Of a DNA stretch of 33,109 nt, positions 401 to 27,015 are shown one piece after another (position 1 is the first letter of the stretch; each line of letters starts with the position of its first letter). A program made the translations under genes and the position numbers. The stretch comes from an uncultured Clostridia bacterium (GTDB lineage Bacteria > Bacillota > Clostridia > TANB77 > CAG-508), in contig CALXYR010000004.1 in NCBI GenBank assembly GCA_944393025.1, positions 1-33,109 on the forward strand, written 5' to 3'. The notes beneath the pieces are model-generated. The model was not told the DNA's origin, did not search any database, and saw only the letters and a program-made list of their open reading frames with translations.

Positions 401-1681
401 ATGATAGACATTAAGTTTTTAAGAGAAAATCCAGATTTAGTAAGAGAAAATATTAAGAAAAAATTCCAAAATCACAAACTTATTTTAGTAGATGAAATTT
501 TAGAATTAGATAAAAAAAATAGAGAAACTAAATTAAATGGTGATGAACTTAGAATGAAAAGAAATTCTTTAAGTTCTGAAATTGGAAATTTAATAAGAAA
601 TGGAAAAAAAGATGAAGCAGAATCTATAAAGTCACAAGTTCAAAAAATAAACATTGAATTAGAAAAAAATGAAAAACTCGAATTAGAATATTCAAATGCA
701 ATCACTGAGAAAATGATGAAAATTCCTAATATGATACATGAATCTGTACCAATTGGTGAAGATGATAGTAAAAATGTAGAAATAGAAAAATTTGGTGAAC
801 CTATAGTTCCTGATTATGAAATACCATATCATGCAGATATTATGGAAAATTTAAATGGATTAGACTTAGATTCTGCGCGTAGAGTTGCTGGAAATGGTTT
901 TTACTATTTAATGGGAAATATTGCAAGACTTCATTCAGCAATACTTTCTTACGCTAGAGATTTTATGATTAATAAAGGTTTTACTTATTGTATTCCACCA
1001 TATATGATTCGTAGTGATGTTGTTACAGGTGTTATGAGTTTTGAAGAAATGGATGCAATGATGTATAAAATTGAAGGTGAAGATTTATACTTAATTGGAA
1101 CCAGTGAACATTCAATGATTGGAAAATTTAAAGGTCAAATTCTTCAAAAATCTAATATGCCATATACTATGACATCTTATTCACCATGTTTTAGAAAAGA
1201 AAAAGGTGCTCATGGAATAGAAGAGCGTGGTATTTATAGAATACACCAATTTGAAAAACAAGAAATGATAGTTGTATGCGAACCTGAAGATAGTTGGAAA
1301 TGGTATGATAAATTATGGTCATATACAGTAGAATTATTTAGGAGTATGGACATTCCTGTTAGAACTCTTGAATGTTGCAGTGGAGATTTAGCTGATTTAA
1401 AAGCTAAAAGTTGTGATGTTGAAGCTTGGAGTCCTAGACAAAAAAAATATTTTGAAGTTGGAAGTTGTTCTAATTTAACTGATGCACAAGCGAGAAGATT
1501 AGGAATTAGAATTAAAGGTGAGAAAGGAAATTATTTTGCACATACTTTAAATAATACTGTTGTGGCTCCACCTAGAATGCTAATTGCTTTTTTAGAAAAT
1601 AATTACAATAAAGATGGAAGTATCAATATTCCAGAAGTACTTCGCCCATATATGGGTGGAATTTGTAAATTAACACCTTAG
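401..1681 (+). CDS. serS: Seryl-tRNA synthetase, divergent
   Basis: This class II synthetase attaches serine to tRNA-Ser (and to tRNA-Sec where present). The N-terminal ~110 residues form the charged coiled-coil arm that binds the tRNA long arm. The catalytic domain carries TSEH (234-237), motif 2 (FRKEKGAHGIEERG then IHQFEK, 264-286) and a motif 3 that reads LNNTVVAPPRMLIAFLENN (383-401). At 426 aa it is the usual length. The start has AGGAGGT at 387-393, seven bases before ATG. Expression is controlled by the serine T-box just upstream. Motifs 2 and 3 depart from the common bacterial pattern (NGSGLAVGR in motif 3) and look closer to the LNNT/LNST type I associate with archaeal and eukaryotic enzymes. 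Serine identity rests on the fold, motif 2 and the UCU specifier. engB follows 50 bases downstream and is probably cotranscribed. Confidence 0.95.
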   Translation: MIDIKFLRENPDLVRENIKKKFQNHKLILVDEILELDKKNRETKLNGDELRMKRNSLSSEIGNLIRNGKKDEAESIKSQVQKINIELEKNEKLELEYSNAITEKMMKIPNMIHESVPIGEDDSKNVEIEKFGEPIVPDYEIPYHADIMENLNGLDLDSARRVAGNGFYYLMGNIARLHSAILSYARDFMINKGFTYCIPPYMIRSDVVTGVMSFEEMDAMMYKIEGEDLYLIGTSEHSMIGKFKGQILQKSNMPYTMTSYSPCFRKEKGAHGIEERGIYRIHQFEKQEMIVVCEPEDSWKWYDKLWSYTVELFRSMDIPVRTLECCSGDLADLKAKSCDVEAWSPRQKKYFEVGSCSNLTDAQARRLGIRIKGEKGNYFAHTLNNTVVAPPRMLIAFLENNYNKDGSINIPEVLRPYMGGICKLTP

Positions 1682-1731
1682 ATTTAAATGTCATTTTAAA
1701 GTTCAAAGTATTAAAAGAAATGGAGTTATTT

Positions 1732-2322
1732 ATGATAATTAAAAATCCTAAATTTACAATATCAGCTGTAAGTCCTAAACAGTATCCTAATGATACACTT
1801 CCTCAAGTAGTATTAGTAGGAAAGTCAAATGTTGGTAAATCATCTTTTATTAATACTATGGTTAATAGAAAAAAACTAGCACGAACTAGCAGTGAACCAG
1901 GAAAAACTAGGCAAATAAATTTTTATAATATAGATGATAAATTTTATTTTGTAGATTTACCTGGTTATGGCTATTCTAAAATGTCTAAAAAAGAACAAAT
2001 TAAAGTTGGTACTTTTATAGAAGAATACTTAAATAAAAGCCAAAATATATCTTTAATTATATTTTTATTGGATATAAGACATTTACCAACCGAAAATGAT
2101 AAATTAATGTATCACTATATTATAAACAGTGGTAGACCATGTGTAATACTTGCTAATAAAGCAGATAAAATAGCTATTACAAAAGTAGAACAAACTGTTG
2201 AAGATTTGCAAATGGAACTAAATCCATTAAAAGATTTAAGCTTTCTAGCATTTTCTTCTGAAAGAAAAATATATTCTGAAAGTGTCTGGGAAATAATAGA
2301 AAAACACATACTAACATTATAA
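1732..2322 (+). CDS. engB: Ribosome biogenesis GTPase EngB/YsxC
   Basis: This small TRAFAC GTPase acts in late assembly of the 50S ribosomal subunit. The 196-aa protein shows the G1 loop GKSNVGKSS (30-38), the GKTRQINFY switch I segment (57-65) containing the G2 threonine, G3 DLPGYG (75-80) and G4 NKAD near residue 142. Length is normal for the family. I chose the ATG at 1732 because GGAG lies six bases before it at 1722-1725; an in-frame ATG at 1720 would add MELF but has no ribosome binding site. It follows serS with a short gap and no visible terminator, so it probably shares the T-box transcript. In many Firmicutes engB sits beside lon or clpX, so the position beside serS is less usual. 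Confidence 0.95.
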   Translation: MIIKNPKFTISAVSPKQYPNDTLPQVVLVGKSNVGKSSFINTMVNRKKLARTSSEPGKTRQINFYNIDDKFYFVDLPGYGYSKMSKKEQIKVGTFIEEYLNKSQNISLIIFLLDIRHLPTENDKLMYHYIINSGRPCVILANKADKIAITKVEQTVEDLQMELNPLKDLSFLAFSSERKIYSESVWEIIEKHILTL

Positions 2323-2420
2323 TAAATTAATATTATTTACTAATTAAATTATTTAAGTATATGCTTTTAGCTATTTAGGTTATTAAGCTAATAAACACTG
2401 ACATAATATATTATATAACA

Positions 2421-2449
2421 TTGACTTTATGTAACTTTTGTATTATACT
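2421..2449 (+). promoter_or_regulatory. Promoter of the 79-codon unknown gene
   Basis: TTGACT (2421-2426) and TATACT (2444-2449) are separated by 17 bases. Transcription would start near 2456. The untranslated leader then contains an imperfect inverted repeat, TTCAATAAGAAC (about 2459-2470) against GTTCTATTGAA (about 2489-2499), which can form a hairpin before the GGAG ribosome binding site at 2513-2516. Confidence 0.65.
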
Positions 2450-2525
2450 AATATTATGTTCAATAAGAACTATGCAATATCTTATTTGTTCTATTGAATA
2501 AATAAAAAATTTGGAGTGAAATCAT

Positions 2526-2765
2526 ATGGCAAAAAAGAAGAACTCTGCTAAAAAAGGAGACTTGAAAATTGAGTTTAAATCTTCGGAATTCATGCAAAGT
2601 TTTATCTTAAGCCTAAGGGAGTTTTTCCCTGAGGCTAAGTTCAAAGAAAATAACAGTTCTACTTTAACTATTTGGGCGGATAACAATTTGATTTCTGAAA
2701 TTCGGATTCTTTCTGAAAGAGCTTGCTTCCAGCGTACGAAGCTTTCCGTGTTCACTCCTTGCTGA
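2526..2765 (+). CDS. Small protein of unknown function (79 aa)
   Basis: I do not recognise this protein. It starts with a Lys-rich tail (MAKKKNSAKKGD), followed by what looks like a compact alternating beta/alpha domain (LKIEF, a helix MQSFILSLREFF, TLTIWAD, then a helix ISEIRILSERA) and a Cys C-terminus. It has its own consensus-like promoter, GGAG at 2513-2516 nine bases before ATG, and a strong terminator right after the stop, so it is a monocistronic unit and likely expressed. Its codons (TCG, GCG, CGG, ACG, TCC, CAG, GTG) are rare in the surrounding AT-rich genes, suggesting recent transfer. Within the gene, AGCCTAAGGGA and TCCCTGAGGCT form an inverted repeat around 2610-2638, so an RNA role is possible. 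The opposite strand is also open over this length, which lowers certainty slightly. Confidence 0.7.
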   Translation: MAKKKNSAKKGDLKIEFKSSEFMQSFILSLREFFPEAKFKENNSSTLTIWADNNLISEIRILSERACFQRTKLSVFTPC

Positions 2766-2779
2766 TTTTTTCAGTTTTT

Positions 2780-2817
2780 AAAAAATGGTGTCCTTATGTC
2801 AAGGACACCATTTTTTT
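2780..2817 (+). terminator. Strong intrinsic terminator
   Basis: A 16-bp perfect stem (2780-2795 with 2801-2816; core ATGGTGTCCTT/AAGGACACCAT) has a five-base loop ATGTC and A-run/T-run flanks. It ends the 79-codon gene at its 3' side and, being A/T flanked on both sides, could also stop transcripts arriving from the right. Confidence 0.9.
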
Positions 2818-2818
2818 A

Positions 2819-3195
2819 TTGTATAGCAAAAATCGACTTTTTATTTAAAATTTCAGTATTTTTAATGATTTTTGCTATACAACAAGGTTAGGCATCCTTA
2901 GACTGTCCGAGCGAAGCGAGTGACATGTATTTCGCACTTGCTTCAGAGGAATACTTGGCGAAATGCCTTTCTTATTGTATAGCAAAAATCGACTTTTTAT
3001 TTAAAATTTCAGTATTTTTAATGATTTTTGCTATACAACAAGGTTAGGCATCCTTAGACTGTCCGAGCGAAGCGAGTGACATGTATTTCGCACTTGCTTC
3101 AGAGGAATACTTGGCGAAATGCCTTTCTTATTGTATAGCAAAAACCGACTTTTTTCGTGATATTTTAGTACGCTTATCTATTCTTGCTATATAAA
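2819..3195. repeat. Exact 156-bp tandem repeat, two full copies plus a partial third
   Basis: The sequence starting at 2821 repeats exactly at 2977, and its first part recurs in degenerate form at 3133; the period is 156 bp each time. Each unit has two parts. The AT-rich part is bounded by a perfect 16-bp inverted repeat, TTGTATAGCAAAAATC (2819-2834) and its complement (2867-2882), with 32 bases between. The GC-richer part holds GAAGCGAGTG (2913-2922) facing CACTTGCTTC (2935-2944), enclosed by AGGCAT (2890-2895) and ATGCCT (2963-2968). The third copy keeps only the AT-rich part, with decayed arms (about 3131-3146 and 3180-3195). No ORF with a start and ribosome binding site was seen. It lies where rightward and leftward transcription meet. 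Its nature (MITE-like element, structured RNA or other) is unknown. Confidence 0.95.
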
Positions 3196-3242
3196 AATGT
3201 TTAATTTTCTTAAATAATCTTTACTGTATTTTAGTATTTTAA

Positions 3243-3425
3243 TTAACTATTTTCTACTTTTTTTACTATCATTTTCAATGCTTTTGGTCTTTCTATCATT
3301 ATAGTATGTCCACACCCCAAGCATTTTAATTTAAAATCTACTCCAACTCTAGTTACTTCCCATAATTTACTTCCACAAGGATGCTGTTTTTTTGTTCTTA
3401 CAATATCTCCTATATTGTATTCCAT
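3243..3425 (-). CDS. DUF951 family small protein
   Basis: This is a 60-aa protein matching the DUF951 pattern: an N-terminal YNIGDIVRTKKQHPCGSKLWEV, then a KLKCLGCGHTIMIER segment. Cys17, Cys35 and Cys38 suggest a metal site, and the first half resembles an SH3-like barrel. Function is unknown. In many Firmicutes this family sits near the replication origin, close to parB/noc, ychF or serS, and serS is indeed within 3 kb here although on the other strand. An AAAGGGG sequence lies about 13 bases before the ATG, a rather long spacing. The gene follows gltX by 51 bases in the same direction and may be the last gene of that transcript. Confidence 0.88.
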   Translation of the reverse strand: MEYNIGDIVRTKKQHPCGSKLWEVTRVGVDFKLKCLGCGHTIMIERPKALKMIVKKVENS

Positions 3426-3476
3426 ATAAATTACACATCCCCTTTCTTTGATAATATAGACTTTTCTATTTTGATA

Positions 3477-5132
3477 CTAATTTTTAGCTATTGCTTTTTC
3501 TAATCTTTTTATTACACTATCTTTTCCTAATACTTGCATTATTTCATACATGTCTGGGGTATTTTGTCTTCCTGTTAAAGCTATTCTTAAAACAGTACTT
3601 ATATCTCCTACATGCCCTGGCCATTTTTCTGGATTTTCTTTAAATTCTTTTACTTCTCTTGCATAGCCACATTTTTCTGCAAGGTCTTTTATTTTATTAA
3701 ACCATGTATCTTTTTCATCATTAATATCAAAAAATTCATTAATGTATGCTTGTAATATTTTATTTATTTCTTCTTTATTATTTATTTTTACATATTCATA
3801 TACAACATTTTCATTTAAAAATTTATTATCAAACATATATACTATAGAATTTTTAACATCAGACCATTTAGAAATATCTTTTCTAGGTTTTTTATTTCCT
3901 CTTTCAATTCCAAATACTTTTAAAGAATATTCTTTATCTTGTAGTAATTCTTCTAATTCCTTGTCATACTTTTTTGCCCAATTTAAAGAATTTTCATACA
4001 CTTCTTCAGCTGTCATTTTTGATATAACTGTTTTTCCTATATCTAATAATTTTATCATATCAAATAATGCACCACTTACACTCATTTTGTTTAATTGGAA
4101 ATCAAATTCTTCCATATCTTTATCCGGATTTGCTCTTCTCCAATTTTCAAAAGTAGAGTTTGCAATGTTTAGTAAATATTCCTTAACAGCATTTACTGGT
4201 ATACCTTCCTCTTTATAGTACGAAACTGCTGCTTCTGGGTCTTTTCTTTTACTTAATTTACGCTTATTCCCATTATCATTTTTCATGATTGGAGATATAT
4301 GAGCATATTTTGGAGCTTTAAATCCTAATTCATGGAATAATTGTAAATGTAATGCTACTGAAGATAACCATTCATCACTACGAATTACATGAGTAGTTCT
4401 CATTAAGTGATCATCTACTGCATGTGCGAAATGATATGTTGGTAGTCCATCTGCTTTAATTATTACTATATCTTGATCATTTTCTGGAAAGTCTACATTT
4501 CCTTTAATAATATCATGGTGTTTTATTTTTCTATCTTCTCTTCCTGGTGATTTAAAACGAATTATATACTTTTCTCCATTTTTTATCTTTTCTATAGATT
4601 CTTCTACAGTAAGATTTCTACATTTTGCCCATACTCCATAATATCCAGGTCTTATTTTAGCAGCTTCTTGTTTTTTTCTAATTTCTTCTACTTGTTCTGA
4701 TGTGCAAAAACATGGATAAGCTTTTCCTTGCTCTAATAAATATTTTGCATAAGCTTCATAAATGTCTTTTCTTAAAGATTGCTTATATGGTCCATATTTT
4801 CCTATTTCTTCTGTTTCTGTTATCATTCCTTCATCTGGTACCATATTAAAATCTTTTAAAGAGTTTACAATACCTGTTACACCATTTTCTACTTCTCTTT
4901 TTTGATCTGTATCTTCAACTCTTAAGAAAAATACACCTTTTGTCTTTTTTGTCATTTCAAGTGCAACTAAAGCTTGATATAATCCACCAATATGAACAAA
5001 TCCTGTTGGACTTGGTGCAAATCTAGAAACTATTGCTCCTTCAGGTAAATTTCTTTCTGGATACTTTTCTTCATAATATGATATTTCCTTTGCATTTGGA
5101 AATATTAAATCTGCTAAATCTTTATAATTCAT
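3477..5132 (-). CDS. gltX: Glutamyl-tRNA synthetase
   Basis: This class I synthetase charges tRNA-Glu with glutamate; in organisms lacking GlnRS it also misacylates tRNA-Gln for the GatCAB pathway. The 551-aa protein has the signature APSPTGFVHIGG with the HIGH-equivalent HIGG at residues 47-50, the LRVEDTDQ segment, and the KMSKS-equivalent KLSKR near residue 292. A CFC pair near residue 142 with a later KCRNL could form the zinc site found in many GluRS. The alpha-helical anticodon-binding region follows. At 551 aa it is longer than the typical ~490, and the N-terminus carries about 30 extra residues before the Rossmann fold. An AAGGAGAG ribosome binding site precedes the ATG. It begins 21 bases after the RNase J stop, so the two are probably cotranscribed. 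Confidence 0.96.
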   Translation of the reverse strand: MNYKDLADLIFPNAKEISYYEEKYPERNLPEGAIVSRFAPSPTGFVHIGGLYQALVALEMTKKTKGVFFLRVEDTDQKREVENGVTGIVNSLKDFNMVPDEGMITETEEIGKYGPYKQSLRKDIYEAYAKYLLEQGKAYPCFCTSEQVEEIRKKQEAAKIRPGYYGVWAKCRNLTVEESIEKIKNGEKYIIRFKSPGREDRKIKHHDIIKGNVDFPENDQDIVIIKADGLPTYHFAHAVDDHLMRTTHVIRSDEWLSSVALHLQLFHELGFKAPKYAHISPIMKNDNGNKRKLSKRKDPEAAVSYYKEEGIPVNAVKEYLLNIANSTFENWRRANPDKDMEEFDFQLNKMSVSGALFDMIKLLDIGKTVISKMTAEEVYENSLNWAKKYDKELEELLQDKEYSLKVFGIERGNKKPRKDISKWSDVKNSIVYMFDNKFLNENVVYEYVKINNKEEINKILQAYINEFFDINDEKDTWFNKIKDLAEKCGYAREVKEFKENPEKWPGHVGDISTVLRIALTGRQNTPDMYEIMQVLGKDSVIKRLEKAIAKN

Positions 5133-26339: not shown

Positions 26340-27015
26340 TCACATTACATACAGCAATATACAAAAGAAATGTAATAAACTTCCTAATAATATAAATAAA
26401 TGAAATATAGAATGCATCCATTTATGTTTTTTACCTAAGCCATAAAGAATTGCACCTAAGGTATATGCTATTCCTCCTGCTACTAATAATACTAGACCTG
26501 GTAATGGTAAAAGTATAGGTAACAAATTAGCTTTAAAAATAATTGCCCAACCCATTCCTAAATAACATATCATTGAAAATACTTTATATTTTTTTAAATC
26601 AATAGCATTAAGTATAATTCCTAGAATTGCCATTGCCCATATAACTCCAAATATTATCCATCCTGTTTGTACATTATATTCTCTAAATGTACAAAGTGCA
26701 AAAGGTGTATATGAACCTGCTATAAGTAAAAATATTGTGCAATGATCTAATACTTGAAGTACTTTTTTACCGCTTACATCTAGGGCTTAATCCATGATAT
26801 ATACTAGACATTGTATATAAAATGAACATTGTAGTTCCATATATTGCACCACTCACAATTCCATATACATTTCCATGTATAGCTGCAATTATTATACAAA
26901 GTACTATAGCCACAATTCCTAATACAGCACCTACAATATGTGAAGTCATATTAAAAATTTCTTCTCCCTTTGTATAAGTTGGTAAAATCCTATCTTTTAA
27001 TTTTGTTCTAGTCAT
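26340..27015 (-). pseudogene. Hemolysin III / TrhA family membrane protein, frameshifted
   Basis: The family is a seven-helix membrane protein of the PAQR/YqfA type, often called hemolysin III, with a role in membrane homeostasis. The N-terminal frame (27015-26767) reads YTKGEEIFNMTSHIVGAVLG through YTMSSIYHGLSPRCKR and stops. The family sequence resumes at once in another frame as SGKKVLQVLDHCTIFLLIAG, SYTPFALCTF, then WAMAILGIILNAIDLKK, and runs to the normal end at 26340 (MHSIFHLFILLGSLLHFF). The span is 676 bases, one more than a multiple of three, so a one-base insertion near 26771-26783 explains it and a restored protein would be 224 aa. GGAGAGG precedes the ATG. Either a recent pseudogene or a sequencing error. 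Confidence 0.85.

Follow-up and report, generated by a model that had tools for sequence, protein, structure and literature searches.

A gene-free, foldable interspersed repeat of uncultured Clostridia that probably inserts behind intrinsic terminators

Small foldable repeats of the bcr1 and BOX kind have been known for years, and we know of no proven mover for them. The length of bcr1 is about 155 bp. In the Bacillus cereus group, where bcr1 occurs with bcr2 and bcr3, its mobility has been tied to the sequence TTTAT and a mechanism resembling site-specific recombination has been proposed (PMC6542083, PMC3446304). In S. pneumoniae, there are BOX, RUP and SPRITE, which are modular, foldable and intergenic, have tandem modules, and sometimes stand near convergent gene ends (PMC3049150). 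The repeat described here is like bcr1, as described in the same two sources, in having tens of interspersed, MITE-like, foldable, intergenic copies, and it is like BOX, RUP and SPRITE in being modular, foldable and interspersed, with tandem modules.

The locus lies in a stretch of 33,109 nucleotides from an uncultured Clostridia bacterium (the window). It is situated between convergent transcription units, as the original prediction had it: a small open reading frame (ORF) of 79 aa on the plus strand is followed by its terminator, by a tandem array and then, on the minus strand, by a 60-aa ORF and gltX. The 60-aa ORF is putatively of the DUF951 type. The features, with the parts of the unit given for copy 1, are as follows.

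2526-2765, plus strand: small ORF, 79 aa, convergent with the DUF951-type ORF
2780-2816, plus strand: intrinsic terminator hairpin of the 79-aa ORF, 16-bp stem; its T-tract is the putative insertion site
2812-2819, plus strand: target TTTTTTAT, outside the element and bordering the first copy on its left
2820-2975, plus strand: copy 1, 156 bp, B1 subtype, from TGTATAGC through TTTCTTAT
2819-2882, plus strand: P1, with arms at 2819-2834 and 2867-2882 and a variable 32-nt loop
2884-2899, plus strand: P2 (putative), AAGG at 2884-2887 with CCTT at 2896-2899; loop AGGC at 2890-2893
2890-2968, plus strand: long-range helix, AGGC at 2890-2893 with GCCT at 2965-2968
2904-2925, plus strand: P3, hairpin with a GCGAAGC tip
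2929-2964, plus strand: P4, ATTTCGC at 2929-2935 with GCGAAAT at 2958-2964
2968-2975, plus strand: right end TTTCTTAT, which resembles the target; copy 2 follows directly
2976-3131, plus strand: copy 2, identical to copy 1
3132-3195, plus strand: third copy, decayed, P1 module only, AT-rich
3243-3425, minus strand: presumed DUF951-type ORF, 60 aa
beyond the DUF951-type ORF, minus strand: gltX

The tandem repeat has a period of 156 and comprises 2.2 copies with 98% matches. In the frame 2812-2967 versus 2968-3123 there is a single base difference, located in the first T-tract (TTTTTT versus TTTCTT); when the unit is phased from 2820, 2820-2975 and 2976-3131 are identical base for base, so that the two identical copies of a 156-bp unit that had been predicted are confirmed, in a short-read metagenome assembly where the number of identical tandem copies may be wrong. 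The third copy is, again as predicted, a degenerate AT-rich module alone (77% identity over 78 nt) with a weaker fold (z -1.6), and the predicted 16-nt palindrome arms are present, TTGTATAGCAAAAATC at 2819-2834 and GATTTTTGCTATACAA at 2867-2882. Within 2400-3500, no terminator-like site was found other than the hairpin at 2780-2816. No Pfam match was found for the 79-aa ORF; small ORFs like it seem to be present at the same convergent spot in many relatives, with a G+C seemingly higher than that of their surroundings. Elsewhere in the window, there is a T-box leader (152-356) upstream of a seryl-tRNA synthetase gene, and two neighbouring minus-strand ORFs (26340-27015) resemble the halves of one hemolysin-III-type membrane protein gene, which is possibly broken.

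The repeat is a family of dispersed copies, beyond a local oddity. A BLAST search with the unit, the means by which the original prediction had proposed to count copies, gave 53 matches, i.e. about 50 copies, in the bacterium's own genome (1.19 Mb in 86 contigs, 79% complete), and 43 of 95 relatives also matched. Copies were counted with a covariance model built from the commoner right module described below, which found 34 copies in the own genome and 0 to 35 in members of the genus. Outside the genus, the model counted 15, 10 and 2 copies in three further genera of the family, and the order's other families had none. A pattern of the conserved core was found in at least 100 genome-contig stretches, nearly all from uncultured gut-type Clostridia; a match in Omnitrophota, without the rest of the element, is likely due to chance. 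The element was not found in viral contigs or in phage and plasmid collections, a blastn comparison with plasmids, including some from the B. cereus group, gave no match (bcr1 itself being outside this comparison), and in an Rfam scan no family matched the element at gathering or at lax thresholds. On a MAG contig labelled Bacilli (L201), the element and its flank are nearly the same as at a locus of the own genome (L024, contig C33), a likeness across differently labelled assemblies that reflects either mis-binning or transfer.

The anatomy of the element was derived from 133 distinct full copies. It is 110-165 bp in length, gene-free, and built on a shared plan, which comprises, from left to right, P1, an AAGG...CCTT stem (P2), one or two GC-rich hairpins, and the end TTTCTTAT. 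P1 is a long hairpin (TTGTATAGG.../...CCTATACAA), of which there are a short form and a long one, the latter having a variable loop of ~30 nt; among related copies the P1 loop varies or is missing. The right module has several subtypes: B1, the type of the window, has a GCGAAGC-tip hairpin and an ATTTCGC/GCGAAAT hairpin, and the commoner B2 types have GTGC...GCAC hairpins, most of which contain a single bulged base, plus a second hairpin. Most P3 stems have one bulged base, and GCGAAGC tips are present in 103 of the 133 copies. GCGAAGC is an unusually stable DNA mini-hairpin, and the fit of the tips to it is suggestive only. P1 loops and right modules are found in differing combinations, and thus the element is modular. 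Minimal copies, with P1, AAGG...CCTT and TCTTAT and without the right hairpins, are found on the minus strand at L219 (~2654) and L220 (~2903); either these arose by deletion or they are the minimal form able to move. At L149 (1239, plus strand; 1778, minus strand), the right-end hairpin is present twice, in inverted orientation and almost without mismatch, as the dimer ATAAGAAAGGTGTGCG...CGCACACCTTTCTTAT, which stands between two oppositely oriented elements.

Compared with shuffled sequences, the single-stranded AT-rich module has a far more stable fold (z -6.2), whereas that of the GC-rich module is moderately more stable (z -2.4). A conserved fold of the element is supported by the alignments: 96% of the cells are paired in both, with double changes in 14 of 33 pairs for B2 (111 cells, versus 30 in shuffles) and in 6 of 22 pairs for B1, where compensatory changes are common within subfamilies and the sequences are kin by descent, so that cell counts overstate the independent events. 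The double changes are located in P3, where they are compensatory among relatives, in P4, which is paired in 100% of the cells and has one compensatory change (C-G to T-A), and in the long-range helix. In the latter, the P2 loop is the exact reverse complement of the tetranucleotide preceding the right end in 104 of 122 distinct right modules, in four versions (AAGT/ACTT, AGGC/GCCT, AGGT/ACCT, and AATT/AATT), and shuffling gives far fewer; in one copy of the own genome (L013), AGGT/ACCT stands within a B1 right module, i.e. both sides have changed. The P2 segments themselves, AAGG and CCTT, are complementary and nearly invariant, without covariation; because P2 hardly varies, its stem is putative rather than proven, and if it forms, the AGGC/GCCT helix would be a pseudoknot. 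Of the pairings in the original prediction, AGGCAT/ATGCCT and ATTTCGC/GCGAAAT were upheld, and covariation in the GC-rich module was found for P3, P4 and the long-range helix, whereas the proposed inner hairpin GAAGCGAGTG/CACTTGCTTC pairs in 75% of the cells with covariation no better than in shuffled or slid controls.

Among the B1 copies of the own genome, identity is 97% in the right module versus 84% in the P1 loop; the right module has been kept more than the loop, which implies that structure matters. When the two strands were compared by folding energy, P1 and the right module pointed in opposite directions. Mismatches confined to single copies are G-U in 14 columns versus A-C in 12, i.e. 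without an excess of G-U, and these do not decide between RNA and DNA, because neutral decay predicts no excess. Inherited mismatches, common to several copies, are mostly G-U on the top strand (the tRNA control being small), in line with a fold of the top strand, as RNA or as single-stranded DNA.

To the left of 115 leading copies there is a T-rich octamer ending in TTAT, usually (T)TTTTTAT (T at -4 in 114, T at -3 in 110, A at -2 in 112 and T at -1 in 114). The octamer varies at -8 to -5, with T, not C, at -5 in 96 of the 115, whereas the TTTCTTA of the element's right end is fixed, partly due to the extraction pattern; because the left flank has T at -5 where the fixed right end has C, there is no target-site duplication. 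The right flank is AT-rich and without a motif, and TGTATAGG at one end is no inverted repeat of TTTCTTAT at the other. The lack of terminal inverted repeats excludes an ordinary DDE-type MITE, which would also have the target-site duplication that is absent here. Of 106 copies, 44 (42%) have a stable hairpin ending at the T-tract, versus 37 (9%) of the 400 intergenic TTTTTTAT sites compared from elsewhere in the same loci, an odds ratio of 7.0; by a wider definition of the hairpin, it is found in 66 of the 115 copies. None of the 93 copies with enough flank lies inside an ORF of more than 150 aa, and 26 of 91 stand between convergent genes, compared with 13% of adjacent gene pairs. The terminator preference may arise partly from survival rather than from targeting, and selection against harmful insertions may have a part in these placements.

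In genus relatives, the interval from the DUF951-type gene, next to gltX, to the convergent small gene usually has a terminator only, without the element (these empty sites are all from other species and too diverged for a base-exact junction). As the orthologous interval is empty, the array of the window is an addition. In one relative (G011) an element is near, at a different terminator (L066). Other arrays in the own genome are mixed: there are three unlike units in a row at one locus (L021) and pairs of unlike units at four (L004, L009, L017, and L018), with neighbouring units sharing a single TTTCTTAT. Such unlike units are not accounted for by copying of a neighbour; insertion at the element's own end accounts for them, since this end, with its hairpin, T-run and TTAT, is similar to the target. 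In 95 of the 133 copies, a right-end hairpin of -5 kcal/mol or better stands no more than 4 nt from the T-run. The recent duplication or homogenisation put forward in the original prediction is plausible for the pair in the window, which a recent duplication in place, or two insertions of one source copy, would explain most simply, but local duplication leaves the arrays of unlike units unexplained.

The dispersal, the boundaries, the target, the terminator preference, the empty orthologous locus, the conserved fold and the mixed arrays form the observed basis of our reading, that this is probably a non-autonomous, gene-free mobile element, which relies on its fold and inserts 3′ of TTAT in T-tracts, preferably those of terminators. 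The small structured mobile element of the original prediction is thereby supported by the dispersed family, the empty orthologous site and the covarying fold. In the proposed mechanism, the information of the element would reside in its folded strand and its fixed right end. An enzyme supplied in trans would read the folded strand, and P1 together with the loop-to-3′-end pairing would bring both ends together. The element would enter a T-tract immediately 3′ of TTAT, with a preference for the T-tracts of intrinsic terminators, and without a target-site duplication. The element's right end, a hairpin and then TTT(T)CTTAT, copies the target, so that later insertions could fall behind an existing copy, and a succession of such insertions would yield head-to-tail arrays such as that of the window. 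In 1.29 Mb of flanking DNA, no gene stood between a left and a right end, as it would in an autonomous version, and the search yielded neither a mobilising enzyme nor an autonomous relative.

The layout, directly 3′ of a fixed TTAT without duplication, is nearest to that of IS200/IS605 elements, and a family of this type, or a REP moved by Y1, in which a Y1 HUH transposase would insert the folded top strand 3′ of TTAT, is an unlikely alternative. The likeness extends to the short fixed left target, the lack of a duplication, the bulged end hairpins and the intergenic dispersal (PMC6006769, PMC8266576); terminal inverted repeats are absent, most P3 stems have a bulged base, GCGAAGC tips prevail, and a Y1 gene exists in the own genome. 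Membership fails, however, on the position of the guide: the foot of P1 includes the last target base, leaving no space for a guide tetranucleotide 5′ of it, and the bases 5′ of P3 are variable. It is disfavoured by the absence of replication-strand bias (orientations relative to GC skew are 29 to 29, although 85% of gene bases are on the G-rich strand). None of the Y1 loci examined carries the element, TnpB is nearly absent from the genus, and the repeats bordering the own-genome Y1 gene are of another kind. Four relatives with 8-17 copies have no Y1 match (G012, G016, G025, and G034, the last being 96% complete), an absence weakened by incomplete assemblies, from which genes may be missing. 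The REP hallmarks, GTAG/GTGG at the hairpin foot and a linked tnpA-REP gene, are absent as well.

The own-genome Y1 gene (L043, G000:C5:19725-23057; gene 1069-1875, minus strand) encodes a 268-aa transposase, is flanked by 56-nt perfect inverted GGGACAGGTC repeats, and resembles the TIRYT/subclass 2.1 type. Subclass 2.1 has GGGG[AT][CG]A[CG]-like repeats (PMC6006769), and the repeat of the own-genome Y1 gene is of that type. At one locus (L002), the GGGACAGGTC repeat stands directly left of the element. True IS200 copies in relatives were considered, and their ends differ from those of the element.

Rather less likely is a structured RNA useful to the host at gene ends, acting, for instance, on transcript ends or stability, which would have been duplicated and selected, with mobility being secondary. 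The much greater conservation of the right modules than of the P1 loops, the position of copies at gene ends, and the inherited top-strand wobble changes are as this would predict. However, copies are often behind terminators, where little transcription is expected, they stand in either direction relative to neighbouring genes, their number ranges from 0 to 35 among close relatives, and the orthologous site in relatives is without the element.

Descent from a group II intron or a TnpB/IscB guide RNA, of which the element would be a remnant, is very improbable. Group IIC introns insert behind intrinsic terminator hairpins (PMC3898094), a preference which the element shares, and the pairing beside its 3′ boundary recalls guide RNAs, which also pair near theirs. 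Nevertheless, the element is far too short, no intron core (domain V) was detected in it, it has no linked reverse transcriptase and matches no Rfam family, TnpB is nearly absent, and the sole reverse transcriptase of the own genome is decayed, with no element nearby. The latter gene (L259, contig C64) has stops and adjoining ORFs like variable regions, and it looks like the remnant of a diversity-generating retroelement; there is also a weak, sub-threshold Rfam RT-14 match. Lastly, a purely local, functionless duplication may account for the identity of the window pair (P1 loops differ by ~16% genome-wide) but is refuted as a full account, to which we give almost no credence, by about 50 further copies with the same boundaries and by the covariation.

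The mobile element favoured here has what characterizes repeats of the bcr1 and BOX kind: its copies are dispersed, mostly intergenic and gene-free, and its fold is conserved. Terminal inverted repeats and candidate IS partners, both of which BOX and RUP possess, are lacking in the element, which inserts behind TTAT. The passages on bcr1 cited above mention neither terminator targeting nor a loop-to-3′-end pairing. The best reading is that the family is new and its kind is known, namely that of foldable, interspersed small repeats, among which bcr1 and BOX are its nearest counterparts and from bcr1 of which it is provisionally set apart. Distinctive against those descriptions are the landing behind terminator hairpins of an element that ends in a copy of its target, and the covarying pairing of the left module with the right end. 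It is doubtful that the element forms a class of its own, in which a gene-free folded strand would be placed behind terminator hairpins by an enzyme belonging to none of the known systems (HUH, DDE, integrase, intron), and its 3′ end, by copying the target, would allow stacking.

With more than 130 copies, the family offers a sharp target rule (TTAT in the T-tract of a terminator) and a covarying link between left module and right end. As relatives have from 0 to 35 copies, the search for the enzyme becomes a tractable comparison. By landing behind terminators and leaving a fresh landing site each time, such an element would spread with low harm to its host.
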